In this document: in pieces, positions 53,087-57,329 of the stretch
How the letters are laid out: every line of letters begins with the position of its first letter
Position numbering within the stretch: position 1 is the first letter of the stretch
Assembly: GCA_002104535.1 (NCBI GenBank)
Contig: NBOG01000004.1
Coordinates: forward strand, 1-64,000
DNA length: 64,000 nt
Direction of reading: 5' to 3'
Source of the DNA: Cognaticolwellia sediminilitoris
GTDB taxonomy: Bacteria; Pseudomonadota; Gammaproteobacteria; Enterobacterales; Alteromonadaceae
Made by a program: the position numbers and the translations under genes
The notes under the pieces: generated by a model
Database searches by the model: none
The model's input: only the letters and a program-made list of their open reading frames with translations
Told to the model about the DNA's origin: nothing

Positions 53087-53411
53087 AATGGTTGCGATTA
53101 TAACATTAATCCTAGCGGCTGTTGTACTTTCAATTCACTGTTCGCACGTTTCGAAATTAATGAAAATTTAAACTATGGTTACAAATGCAGAGTTTAAAGT
53201 CAGCATGGTTTAGTGTCATAACAAAGCTAATTTGTCATCTTCAAATTGAAATCATTCATCAAGCAAATAATTGGGTGGTATGTAAATCAGCAATATACTA
53301 ATTGAGAAGTTAAGCATATTATGATTAGCAAATTATGTAATAACTTTATCATAAATCCCAGTCATTTAAGCCTGTTAGGTTTTTGATAAAATAGATAATA
53401 CGGACATATAC
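53087..53411. other. Intergenic region between rhlE and the T5orf172-like gene
   Basis: About 325 bp of A/T-rich sequence without a recognisable gene. Promoters for both divergent genes should lie here. I see no distinct operator or RNA structure. Confidence 0.5.
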
Positions 53412-53723
53412 ATGAATACACATGAAGTTGCTTTCGGCAATGTTTACGTGATGACACATTCGTTTTTTAGCGATGTGATTAAAATTGGCTGTACACCAAT
53501 TGATCCTATCGAGCATGCATTTAATTTATCTCAAAAAAGCCCTGGCGATTATCGTGTAGTGTTTTCACTTCAATGTAAAAAACCATGCCAGATAAAAAAA
53601 CAAATTCGTGAATATTTAAATGCGGAAAAATACGTTAATGAGTTTTATCAAGTTCCTGCTGATGTAGCAGAGCAACTTTTAAAGCGTGAAACATTAAGAA
53701 TACCAATAAAGACCGAAAACTAA
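53412..53723 (+). CDS. Small T5orf172/MUG113-like protein (GIY-YIG-related)
   Basis: A 103-aa protein. The opening FGNVYVMTHSFFSDVIKIGCTPIDPIEHAFNLSQKSPGDYRVVFSLQC resembles the T5orf172/MUG113 domain, which is related to the GIY-YIG nuclease fold (typical pattern: G-x-V-Y-V-M-T ... IKIG.T..DP..R...L). The end EKYVNEFYQVPADVAEQLL also fits the family pattern EFF.V....A. The catalytic Arg of GIY-YIG enzymes is replaced by His in PIEHAF, so activity is doubtful. It is a solo gene next to the repeat array. The assignment rests on pattern memory. Confidence 0.6.
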   Translation: MNTHEVAFGNVYVMTHSFFSDVIKIGCTPIDPIEHAFNLSQKSPGDYRVVFSLQCKKPCQIKKQIREYLNAEKYVNEFYQVPADVAEQLLKRETLRIPIKTEN

Positions 53724-53818
53724 TTAAACTTTCATATGGTGAATGGATGTTGATTTTTAAGGAAAATTTCCTGTAAAAATAATCATTAAAAAATAAATGA
53801 ATATAAATTTAAATTATT

Positions 53819-54264
53819 TTGAACTTTAGCCAACATCGACGCTCTTACTATACGAGAGACTTTATTTCCCTAAGTGTTTTATGTTTTTATAACGCGTTTA
53901 CCTATGTAAACGCTTTTTTTTGCCTAAAACTTGGCAAAACTGATAGCAGCTACTCTTTATCTTCCATATCTATATGTTCACGCTACGCTCAAAAGCAACC
54001 AACAACACTTTGTTGGCCTAAAATCCAACCTACACAAGTTTATAATTCGCATTTGCCCAAGCCACAAAGGGGAGGTAATTCTCTGTAGGTCGGCTTTAGC
54101 CCGACAAAGTTAAAACATATGAGTGTGTTGGCCTAAAGACCAACCTACAAAAGTTTATAATTCGCATTTACCCAAGCCACAAAGGGAGGTAATTCTCTGT
54201 AGGTCGGGCTTTAGCCCGACAAAAGTAAAACATATGAGAGTGTTGGCCTAAAGACCAACCTACA
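53819..54264 (+). repeat. Repeat block A: leader plus five REP-like palindromes
   Basis: The block starts with a leader (53819-54010) containing a terminator hairpin. Then palindromic elements alternate in orientation about every 115 bp: R1 54011-54034, F1 54084-54106, R2 54126-54149, F2 54198-54221, R3 54241-54264. An F element starts TGTAGG, then TCGGGC-TTTA-GCCCGA-CA. An R element is the opposite orientation of a sister sequence (TGTTGGCC-TAAA-GACCAACC-TACA). The GTAGG head before a palindrome is typical of REP elements tied to RAYT transposases. Short spacers (ACATATGAG, ATTCGCATTTACCC) are conserved too. Confidence 0.93.
53894..53921 (+). terminator. Terminator hairpin in leader A
   Basis: GCGTTTAC (53894-53901) pairs with GTAAACGC (53906-53913), loop CTAT-like, then eight T residues. 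It is repeated exactly 700 bp downstream in leader B. Confidence 0.9.
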
Positions 54265-54336
54265 AAAGTTTATAATTAATTGTATAGGGTCTGGCTGTTG
54301 CCGCATTTTTAGGTTTTATATTGGGGTTGGTGCCAT

Positions 54337-54359
54337 GGCGAATAAATTCGCCCCTACAA
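54337..54359 (-). repeat. Second type of GTAGG-headed palindrome
   Basis: On the minus strand it reads TTGTAGG, then GGCGAA-TTTA-TTCGCC. It has a GTAGG head and a palindrome but a different stem from the elements around it. It lies in the spacer between blocks A and B. Confidence 0.75.
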
Positions 54360-54435
54360 GTATTAATCACTTCTCGGTGTCGAGCGAAGCGACTCAGCTT
54401 TTCTCGTTGGTGAATTATGTTTTGATGTTACCATT

Positions 54436-54459
54436 TGTAGGTCGTTTTTTTGCCCGAGA
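54436..54459 (+). repeat. Degenerate REP-like element
   Basis: TGTAGGTCG followed by a T-run and GCCCGAGA: the head and the 3' arm of an F element are kept but the stem centre is eroded. It looks like an old relic between the two blocks. Confidence 0.6.
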
Positions 54460-54518
54460 AGAATAATTTAAGGCTAGTGCATTACAAAAACAACTAACTT
54501 AAAAGAAATTTAAAAAAA

Positions 54519-55081
54519 TTGAACTTTAGCCAACATCGACGCTCTTACTATACGAGAGACTTTATTTCCCTAAGTGTTTTATGTTTTTATATCGCGTTTA
54601 CCTATGTAAACGCTTTTTTTTGCCTAAAATTTGGCAAAACTGATAGCAACTACTCTTTATCTTCCATATCTATATGTTCACGCTACGCTCAAAAGCAATC
54701 AACAACACTTTGTTGGCCTAAAATCCAACCTACAAACGTTTATAATTCGCATTTACCCAAGCCACAAAGGGGGGGAATTCTCTGTAGGTCGGGCTTTAGC
54801 CCGACAAAATTAAAACATATGAGAGTGTTGGCCTAAAAACCAACCTACAAAAGTATATAATTCGCATTTACCCTAGCCACAAAGGGGGGGGAATTCTCTG
54901 TAGGTCGGGCTTTAGCCCGACAAAATTAAAACATATGAGAGTGTTGGCCTAAAGACCAACCTACAAAAGTCTATAATTCGCATTTACCCTAGCCACAAAG
55001 GGAAGGTAATTATCTGTAGGTCGGGCTTTAGCCCGACAAAATTAAAACATATTAGAGTGTTGGCCTAAAAACCAACCTACA
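54519..55081 (+). repeat. Repeat block B: leader plus seven REP-like palindromes
   Basis: A second copy of block A, offset by exactly 700 bp at its start, with one more repeat unit. Elements: R4 54711-54734, F3 54783-54806, R5 54826-54849, F4 54899-54922, R6 54942-54965, F5 55015-55038, R7 55058-55081. The spacing is 115-116 bp between like elements. The leader differs from leader A by only a few substitutions (for example AACGC against ATCGC before the hairpin). A related motif, TGTAGGTTGTGCTTTTAG..., follows at 55098. Confidence 0.93.
54594..54621 (+). terminator. Terminator hairpin in leader B
   Basis: The second copy of the GCGTTTAC/GTAAACGC hairpin with eight T residues. Confidence 0.9.
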
Positions 55082-55097
55082 AAAGTCTATTACTCAT

Positions 55098-55122
55098 TGT
55101 AGGTTGTGCTTTTAGTAAAAGC
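55098..55122. repeat. GTAGG-headed hairpin at the array's right end
   Basis: TGTAGGTTGT precedes the stem GCTTTT/AAAAGC (55108-55122). It lies 20 bp after the OsmC-YcaO stop on the other strand and may double as that gene's transcript end. Confidence 0.55.
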
Positions 55123-55142
55123 TGACTTAACACTAGCACTTT

Positions 55143-57329
55143 TTAGTTTTGTGCTGCGACTTTACGGGCATAGTGTAATTTTTTATAACTCTCGATTAAT
55201 CGTAAATGCTTATCTAAACCGGCTAAATCCATACCAGTTTTTGTTAAACCAAAGAACTTCACTTCACCGTAAACCGAACCGACAACATTATGCATAGTTT
55301 CTTCGCCAAACATTCTATTTAAGTTAGGTAGAAAGTCTTCAAGTTCCATCGCTTCATCTATCGTAATCTCTAGGACTGCTTGCATCGCTTGGTAAAATAA
55401 GCGGCGTTCGACGGTGTTATCGTTAAATTGTAGAAACTCTTCAACTAATTCCTGTGCGTCTTCTATGGCACCTAACGCTAAATAAATCAGTATTTTAAGT
55501 TCTAATATAGTCAACTGTCCCCAAACAGTATTTTCATCAAACTCAATACCAATTAAGGTGCGAATATCAATATAGTTATCCAGCTGGCTATCTTCTAAGC
55601 GTGTCACTAAACTTTCTAGTGCGTCATCATCTAAAATATGCAGATTAAGAATGTCTTCACGATAATTAAGTGCCTTATTGGTATTATCCCAAACAAGATC
55701 TTCGACAGGATAAATTTCAGAATAATCAGGAACTAATATACGACAAGCACTAGCGCCAAGTTGATCGAATACAGCTACATACGCCTCTTTGCCTAGGTCT
55801 TTTAAAATAGCGAATAAACGATCATTTTCTTCTTCATTGGTCCCAGAAAAATCCCATTCACAGAATTGATAATCTTGTTTATTACTAAAGAAACGCCACG
55901 AGATAACACCGGTAGAATCAATGAAGTGTTCAACCGCATTTTCAGGCTCAGCTACTGCTAAGCTATTAAATGTCGGCTTAGGTACATCGTTTAAGCCTTC
56001 AAAACTGCGGCCTTGCAATAACTCAGTCAAGCTTCGCTCTAACGCGACTTCAAAGCTAGGGTGAGCACCAAAAGAAGCAAACACACCGCCTGTTTTTGGG
56101 TTCATCAAGGTTACACACATAACAGGAAATTGTCCGCCTAATGAGGCGTCTTTAACTACAACCGGGAAACCTTGTTTTTCTAGCGCTTCAATGCCCTCAA
56201 GAATACTCGGGTATTTCTCAAGTACGTTTTTAGGCACATCAGGTAGAACAATTTCTTGTTCTATTATTTGTCTTTTCACTGCTCGTTCAAATATTTCAGA
56301 CAAGCACTGTACTTGCGCTTCCGCTAAATTATTACCCGCGCTCATACCATTACTTAAGAACAAGTTTTCAATTAAATTAGATGGAAAGTAAACTGTTTCA
56401 CCGTCAGACTGACGCGTATATGGGATCGCACAAATACCGCGTTCGACATTTCCGGAATTAGTATCAATTAAATTTGAACCTCGTAGTTCATCATCTGGGT
56501 TGTAAATCGCTAAACAGTGCTCATCTAAAATACCTGCTGGTAAATCATCGCTGTCATCTAACTTGAACCACTTTTCATTTGGATAATGAACAAAATTACT
56601 GTTAGCAATATCTTGGCCCAAAAACTGATCGTTATAAAAGAAGTTACAGTTTAAACGCTCGATAAACTCACCTAGGGCAGAACAAAGTGCGCTTTCTTTA
56701 GTGGCGCCTTTACCATTGGTGAAACACATAGGAGAGGCTGCGTCACGAATATGTAATGACCAAACATTTGGCACAATATTACGCCATGAAGCAATTTCTA
56801 TTTTCATGCCTAGATCCGCTAAAATTGCGGTCATATTTTTAATGGTTTCTTCTAGCGGTAAATCTTTTCCTAAAATATAAGTACTGCTGTTGTCGCTCGT
56901 CTGCTCCATCAACATTGCTTGTGCGTCTTGCTCAAGACTGTCGACTAAATCAACTTTAAATTCAGGGCCTGTTTGTATCACTTTTTTAACCGTACAACGG
57001 TCAATTGAACGCCTAATACCTAAGCGATCTTTTTCTGAAATACTTTCGGGTAATTCCACTTGAATTTGGAATATTTGCTTATAACGATCTTCAGGATCAA
57101 CAATATTGTTTTGTGACAGTCGAATGTTTTCTGTTGGAATATCACGAGAATTACAGTACACCTTAACAAAATATGCCGCACACATAGCAGAAGAAGCCAG
57201 GAAATAGTCAAATGGTCCCGGTGCAGAGCCATCACCTTTATAACGAATGGGTTGATCGGCAATGACACTAAAGTCATCAAACTTAGCTTCTACTTTTAAA
57301 TTATCGAGAAAATTAACTTTAATTTCCAT
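55143..57329 (-). CDS. OsmC-YcaO fusion protein
   Basis: A 728-aa protein. The N-terminal OsmC domain (about 1-130) has YKGDGSAPGPFDYFLASSAMCAAYFVKVYCNSRDIP, with the OsmC cysteine in SSAMCAAYF and a later GIRRSIDRCTVKKVI. A YcaO domain (about 140-560) has KGATKESALCSALGEFIERLNCNFFYND and the ATP-site blocks SNGMSAGNNLAEAQVQCLSEIFERAVK and GAHPSFEVALERSLTELLQGRSFEGL. A helical C-terminal domain with TPR-like character follows (about 590-728). Stand-alone E. coli YcaO supports RimO in S12 thiomethylation. The extra OsmC domain, a peroxide/thiol-reactive fold, suggests a sulfur or redox link (inference). The ribosome site is AAGGA. Confidence 0.88.
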   Translation of the reverse strand: MEIKVNFLDNLKVEAKFDDFSVIADQPIRYKGDGSAPGPFDYFLASSAMCAAYFVKVYCNSRDIPTENIRLSQNNIVDPEDRYKQIFQIQVELPESISEKDRLGIRRSIDRCTVKKVIQTGPEFKVDLVDSLEQDAQAMLMEQTSDNSSTYILGKDLPLEETIKNMTAILADLGMKIEIASWRNIVPNVWSLHIRDAASPMCFTNGKGATKESALCSALGEFIERLNCNFFYNDQFLGQDIANSNFVHYPNEKWFKLDDSDDLPAGILDEHCLAIYNPDDELRGSNLIDTNSGNVERGICAIPYTRQSDGETVYFPSNLIENLFLSNGMSAGNNLAEAQVQCLSEIFERAVKRQIIEQEIVLPDVPKNVLEKYPSILEGIEALEKQGFPVVVKDASLGGQFPVMCVTLMNPKTGGVFASFGAHPSFEVALERSLTELLQGRSFEGLNDVPKPTFNSLAVAEPENAVEHFIDSTGVISWRFFSNKQDYQFCEWDFSGTNEEENDRLFAILKDLGKEAYVAVFDQLGASACRILVPDYSEIYPVEDLVWDNTNKALNYREDILNLHILDDDALESLVTRLEDSQLDNYIDIRTLIGIEFDENTVWGQLTILELKILIYLALGAIEDAQELVEEFLQFNDNTVERRLFYQAMQAVLEITIDEAMELEDFLPNLNRMFGEETMHNVVGSVYGEVKFFGLTKTGMDLAGLDKHLRLIESYKKLHYARKVAAQN

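Follow-up and report, generated by a model that had tools for sequence, protein, structure and literature searches.

A REPIN cluster beside a probable small RNA gene with a sigma-E-type promoter in Cognaticolwellia sediminilitoris

In the window, by which we mean the whole 64-kb stretch of Cognaticolwellia sediminilitoris DNA that was analysed, GTAGG-headed palindromes alternate in orientation in two blocks, and each block is preceded by the same leader. The locus raises the question of what these palindromes are, how the array was built, and whether the leader is a part of it. An earlier note had described five forward and seven reverse palindromes, and all 12 were confirmed by direct reading at 54012-55080; the forward ones are denoted here as X and the reverse ones as Y. 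They alternate with the claimed period of 115-116 bp, which is 115 bp in block A and 116 bp in block B, and Tandem Repeats Finder gave periods of 115 (2.3 copies, 94% match) and 116 (3.3 copies, 95%). The blocks are indeed duplicated, in that the leader and the array start recur 700 bp downstream over 270 nt at 95% identity, and the different GTAGG palindrome and the relic described between them are both present. When the 64-kb window was scanned with a pattern at ≤2 mismatches, 11 of the 12 elements were recovered, compared with a mean of 0 in 100 shuffles. The forward element at 54085-54105 lacks one stem G and is one base shorter, so that it is invisible to ungapped scans. The features of the array are as follows.

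54085-54105 (one base shorter), 54199, 54784, 54900 and 55016, + strand: forward X elements, GTAGGTCGGGCTTTAGCCCGAC, from direct reading and scan
54012, 54127, 54242, 54712, 54827, 54943 and 55059, − strand: reverse Y elements, GTAGGTTGGTCTTTAGGCCAAC and one- or two-base variants
54012..54263: REP block A, a single Y at 54012-54033 (−), then X-Y head-to-head pairs at 54085-54148 and 54199-54263
54712..55080: REP block B, a single Y at 54712-54733 (−), then X-Y head-to-head pairs at 54784-54848, 54900-54964 and 55016-55080
54337..54357, − strand: second REP type, GTAGGGGCGAATTTATTCGCC, between the blocks; 75 copies in the genome at ≤1 mismatch (control 0)
54437..54460 (approximate limits), + strand: degenerate X relic, family D3, about 74% alike
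53806..55105: duplicated package of predicted sRNA gene, single Y and X-Y units; the first copy (A) begins at about 53806 and the second (B) at about 54506, with 215 bp between the copies that hold the second REP type and the relic

A further degenerate element, absent from the list in the earlier note, is located at about 55099-55120.

As the REP reading of the palindromes implied, X and Y are dispersed through the genome. The 3.84-Mb assembly contains 88 matches at ≤2 mismatches (41 X and 47 Y, in 32 clusters), compared with one for the reversed control. Among neighbours within 70 bp, we counted 35 pairs, 30 of which are X-Y head-to-head with GTAG outside, four tail-to-tail and one head-to-tail. 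The head-to-head pairs take in 60 of the 88 elements, and their start-to-start spacing is 43 bp in 19 pairs, 42 bp in five, 36 bp in three, 41 bp in two and 46 bp in one. This X-Y head-to-head arrangement is the REPIN arrangement. The elements are short imperfect palindromes with a GTAG head, occur in many dispersed copies and lie mainly in inverted pairs at a fixed distance, as GTAG-class REPs do, and the alternating palindromes of the window are almost certainly a REPIN (BIME-like) cluster of two such REPs, X and Y.

The earlier statement that a RAYT gene is not in the window was correct, and a RAYT gene flanked by the same palindromes was found further along the same contig, some 205 kb downstream:

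C26:259699-260151 (L063:4200-4652): RAYT gene encoding 150 aa, with a score of 140 bits for REP_Tyr_transpos of NCBIfam (cut-off 80)

On its 5' side, an X is placed 22 bp before the start, with further X/Y elements upstream, and on its 3' side a degenerate X with three mismatches follows directly after the stop and is paired with a perfect Y. This RAYT presumably mobilised the X/Y REPs in trans from its position 205 kb away. PF01797 gave two matches in the genome; the other one, a RAYT-like gene on C9 that encodes 237 aa and scores 65 bits (cut-off 80), was rejected as the source, as it is without flanking GTAGG palindromes. The X-Y pairs near the RAYT gene (C26, about 259032-259607) have 36 bp between starts compared with mostly 41-43 bp elsewhere, and these pairs beside the transposase gene are a distinct REPIN subtype. 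No element of the second REP type was found within 1 kb on either side of the strong RAYT. Considering that this type has 75 copies, not every REP here is tied to this RAYT.

Across the genus, a search with the RAYT model returned 20 loci, of which 12 were examined. GTAGG palindromes were present at all six loci above 120 bits (L200-L205, with 18, 2, 5, 16, 27 and 14 elements, respectively; L204 has one internal stop) and at none of the six weaker loci examined (L206-L210 and L218), among which L206, at 80.5 bits, narrowly exceeds the curated cut-off and L210 is interrupted by three stops. The palindrome stems differ among several of the species with strong RAYT loci. With strong RAYT genes accompanied by REP palindromes of their own, whose stems vary among several species, the genus offers a natural series for the study of RAYT-REP recognition. 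Many genus proteins of about 325-340 aa (e.g. G000:C6:31976 and G014:C1:374156) match the C-terminal half of the RAYT model only, at about 30 bits.

The earlier note had regarded the long regular unit with conserved spacers as unusual. This assessment could not be upheld, since arrays of similar period are present at RAYT loci and elsewhere in the genus and tandem REPINs have been published. The periods of tandem REP arrays elsewhere in the genus range from 49 to 208 bp and mostly lie at 85-135 bp, so the unit in the window is typical of the genus. Even though the palindromes differ from species to species, the arrays at L200-L205, at L150-L156 and in the window have units of similar length, with 107-121 bp at several RAYT loci and 113-130 bp elsewhere; units of 49, 85-99 and about 203-208 bp were also found.

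Published systems are close to the array. In the part of Bertels and Rainey 2011 (PMC3116915) considered here, ordered clusters are tandem, near-identical REPINs including flanking sequence, and the largest cluster named there for SBW25 consists of four REPINs and one REP. Those REPINs share with the window array the inverted REP pairs and the link to a RAYT, whereas the window has five pairs and two single REPs in two blocks over 1.07 kb, and its package includes the predicted sRNA gene. Likewise, the excerpts used from Di Nocera and others 2013 (PMC3733652) describe GTAG-tagged REP dimers of 24 families that are reiterated in tandem with flanking DNA; the GTAG head, short stem-loop, head-to-head dimers and tandem reiteration are common to the window, and Colwellia and Alteromonas are not mentioned in these excerpts. 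The E. coli BIMEs, in the portion of PMC2817692 consulted, have regularly spaced REPs of alternating orientation as in the window, but their palindromes differ. Considering that tandem REPINs with flanking DNA are already published, the REP layer is ordinary, and the array is a new instance of a known arrangement.

When the inter-REPIN spacers of 50-51 bp were compared with 69 further loci of the same genome, a set that overlaps and covers part of the genome, no match exceeded 14 nt, and the REPIN had matches in 62 of the 69. On this evidence, the spacers appear to be specific to this locus, which suggests that the array grew by local duplication of REPIN and spacer. In our model, a REPIN would have inserted behind the leader, local tandem amplification of the 115-116-bp unit (REPIN and locus-specific spacer) would have followed, and the sRNA gene with the REPs behind it would then have been duplicated as one package in this species, giving two sRNA copies. 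We retained no order of descent among the five units of 115-116 bp, since their pairwise differences at 5-11 positions point to none clearly. Local amplification of the unit and locus-specific spacers would also be expected if a palindrome that arose by chance, with no relation to REPs or to any RAYT, had simply been duplicated in tandem at this locus. However, that purely local origin is refuted by the 88 dispersed X/Y elements (control 1) and by the RAYT gene flanked by them, and we give it almost no weight.

The earlier note had named a shared leader among the features of the array. The leader does not belong to the REP system; it is a separate, conserved element of about 101 bp that resembles an RNA gene. 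The predicted features of its two copies are listed below; for copy 1, the transcription start is predicted near 53853-53855.

53821..53853, + strand: promoter of sRNA copy 1, sigma-E type; GAACTT at 53821-53826, 16-bp spacer, TCTTA at 53843-53847
53854..53921, + strand: sRNA copy 1 as predicted, length about 68 nt; the body is U-rich and contains TTTCCCTAAGTG, the terminator has its stem at 53894-53913 and a T8 tail; covariance-model score 105 bits
54521..54553, + strand: promoter of sRNA copy 2, with the same sequence as for copy 1
54554..54621, + strand: predicted sRNA copy 2, one base off copy 1 within the 101-bp element; covariance-model score 103 bits

The leader was found in all 16 of the other genus genomes (28 matches, at least one per locus, over about 100-180 nt), and its copies at these loci diverge beyond the T-run. 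We extracted 27 copies, two from the window and 25 from relatives, with a pattern in which GAACT and T8 were fixed and the promoter spacing was free. Every one of the 27 has TCNTA at a distance of 16 bp behind GAACTN. Three further BLAST matches, one of them cut by a contig end, were missed by this pattern. GAACT-N17-TCNNA is present in 42 of 43 aligned copies, and the remaining row is cut by a contig end. Over 30 copies, the mean pairwise identity was 0.36 and 0.31 in the upstream and downstream flanks, respectively. Within the element, it was 0.89 for GAACTT, 0.46 for the promoter spacer, 0.82 for the −10 part, 0.71 for the body, 0.79 for the terminator stem-loop and 1.00 for the T-run. The profile is that of a short RNA with a promoter in front and a terminator behind.

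Based on the alignment of 43 copies, which was fitted to the covariance model and favours structure, 98.4% of the cells in the terminator helix are paired and six of the nine pairs have two-sided changes, a result that 0 of 500 shuffles reached; in a MAFFT alignment of 27 copies made without the model, two-sided changes were present in three of the nine pairs. A terminator scan found exactly both predicted terminators, a count of 2 that is not above the shuffles (mean 1.6), and folding z-scores of five predicted transcripts were −3.1 to −4.6. With a promoter motif of its own, an intrinsic terminator and a conserved non-coding body, the leader has at sequence level what bacterial sRNA genes have, and it is very probably one.

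In the family, covariance model R1 matched 59 of 196 genomes and R2 matched 60 of 196, in 18 of 52 genera, and 51 of the 60 genomes with an R2 match have 2-9 copies. In an order-wide draw of 197 genomes, six had a match, all of the same family and including the own genome; the family- and order-wide scans used stricter filters, with which weak matches are lost. The own genome has two sRNA-model matches, both in the window. Among named genomes, the exact core pattern was found on 16 contigs titled Colwellia, Candidatus Colwellia, Cognaticolwellia, Pseudocolwellia or Alteromonadaceae bacterium. The gene ycaO is a neighbour at 12 of the 16 genus loci; in other genera, the tested loci (with 1.5-kb flanks) did not show it. 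Judging from these comparisons, the leader is conserved at the ycaO locus across the genus, often in multiple copies. In several relatives, a weaker-scoring relative of the sRNA (about 60-70 bits) is located elsewhere (G004:C12:669235, G016:C17:72586, G008:C53:14929, G001:C30:117341 and G009:C1:203038), perhaps as a second sRNA of the same family.

In Rfam (release 15), the leader scored at best 24.3 bits against a gathering score of 57 (RmaA), and 15.6 against 41 (suhB); the REPINs scored 28.6 bits against 79 (mir-1245), and the 17 loci with distant leader copies gave no match at the gathering score. As this score was reached nowhere, membership of the leader, the REPINs or the distant loci in any Rfam family was rejected. 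No description of the leader element was recognised in the literature covered, which consisted mainly of open-licence titles and abstracts. The leader is apparently an undescribed sRNA and probably a sigma-E-driven one, for which we infer both transcription and sigma-E control. Taken all together, we are rather confident that the locus is best explained as a REPIN cluster beside an sRNA gene of about 70 nt with a sigma-E-type promoter.

Other readings of the leader have to be weighed against the sRNA gene. In the window, the leader was duplicated together with the REPs, as it would be if it belonged to the mobile REP element and were carried about with it. However, the own genome has two leader matches, both here, against 88 X/Y elements; leader conservation stops at the promoter and the T-run; and no GTAGG palindrome was seen at the sRNA loci of the 16 relatives by a finder that recovers seven of the 12 window elements and the one of the second type. 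Since the finder misses five of the 12, the absence of REPs in relatives is suggestive and not complete. Tandem copies of the sRNA are also present in relatives at loci in which no REP was seen. The REPs behind the sRNA terminator thus look like something acquired later and specific to this species, and carriage of the leader by the REP element is very improbable. The strong terminator at the leader end and the MUG113-domain gene 97 bp upstream would instead suit a conserved DNA or mRNA element, such as a terminator and 3' UTR belonging to the upstream gene, or a gene for a short peptide. But the upstream MUG113 protein was matched at only two of the 16 relatives' loci, a promoter-like motif is conserved immediately before the body, and gaps of 1, 2 and other non-triplet lengths in the body across copies argue against a peptide gene, so that we hold such an element to be improbable. 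The MUG113-domain protein just upstream of the sRNA is small (103 aa, 53412-53723).

Concerning the sigma factor, the best RpoE gene of the own genome (335 bits) has GAACTT-N16-TCCTA upstream and the leader has GAACTT-N16-TCTTA, a comparison within one genome in which both share the layout GAACTT-N16-TCNTA. The window has five sites of the looser form GAACTT-N16-TCNNA, of which three lie away from the leader copies; the motif alone therefore proves little, and its conservation is the argument. On this basis, control of the sRNA by RpoE is likely. Another ECF sigma factor, or sigma-70, could drive the sRNA instead, considering that the genome has ten RpoE-model matches, the nine weaker of which are other ECF-like sigma factors that could serve, and that the −10 of the leader, TCNTA, differs from the sigma-E consensus TCTGA. 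Against this stand the layout shared with the best RpoE gene and the sigma-70 scan, which gave 0 sites in 53380-55200 compared with 5.7 in shuffles, and we regard a driver other than RpoE as unlikely.

For the preferred reading of the leader as a sigma-E-type sRNA gene, known counterparts exist. MicA and RybB are sigma-E sRNAs; like the leader, they end in a terminator, and their sigma-E-type promoters are conserved among relatives. VrrA, in the part of PMC2628432 considered, is likewise an sRNA gene with a terminator and a sigma-E-type promoter conserved among relatives, whereas the leader is predicted at about 70 nt compared with 140 nt and is multicopy. Since the leader has no Rfam match at the gathering score, no sequence relation to MicA, RybB or VrrA is shown. 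With sibling sRNAs, as described in the consulted portion of a review (PMC4211561), it has in common that a genome holds more than one highly related sRNA gene; here, sequences were compared via Rfam only.

On envelope stress, RpoE would transcribe about 70 nt from the leader, Hfq would bind the U-rich 3' end of the sRNA, and the conserved stretch around CCCUNAGUG may pair with target mRNAs. If transcribed, the leader would provide an envelope-stress sRNA candidate for Colwellia-type marine bacteria with a defined promoter, terminator and covariance model and a series of copy numbers from 1 to 9 per genome, and the retention of some sRNAs in many tandem copies would become directly testable. 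A more speculative proposal, which we doubt, is that the sRNA and the REP array are one evolvable unit, in which the long direct repeats brought in by the REPs behind the sRNA gene would let recombination raise or lower the sRNA copy number, so that the REPINs would tune the dosage of an envelope-stress sRNA; equally doubtful is its companion, that the sRNA represents an undescribed copy-number-variable sigma-E family of Colwellia-type marine bacteria with up to 9 copies per genome. As for targets, AGGGAARTAA near an ATG gave 76 matches in 17 genomes compared with 37 for the reversed control. Inspection of 29 of the 30 loci obtained gave no clear outer-membrane target, and many are without a long open frame after the ATG; one gene start is recurrent, with similar proteins in L158 and L183.
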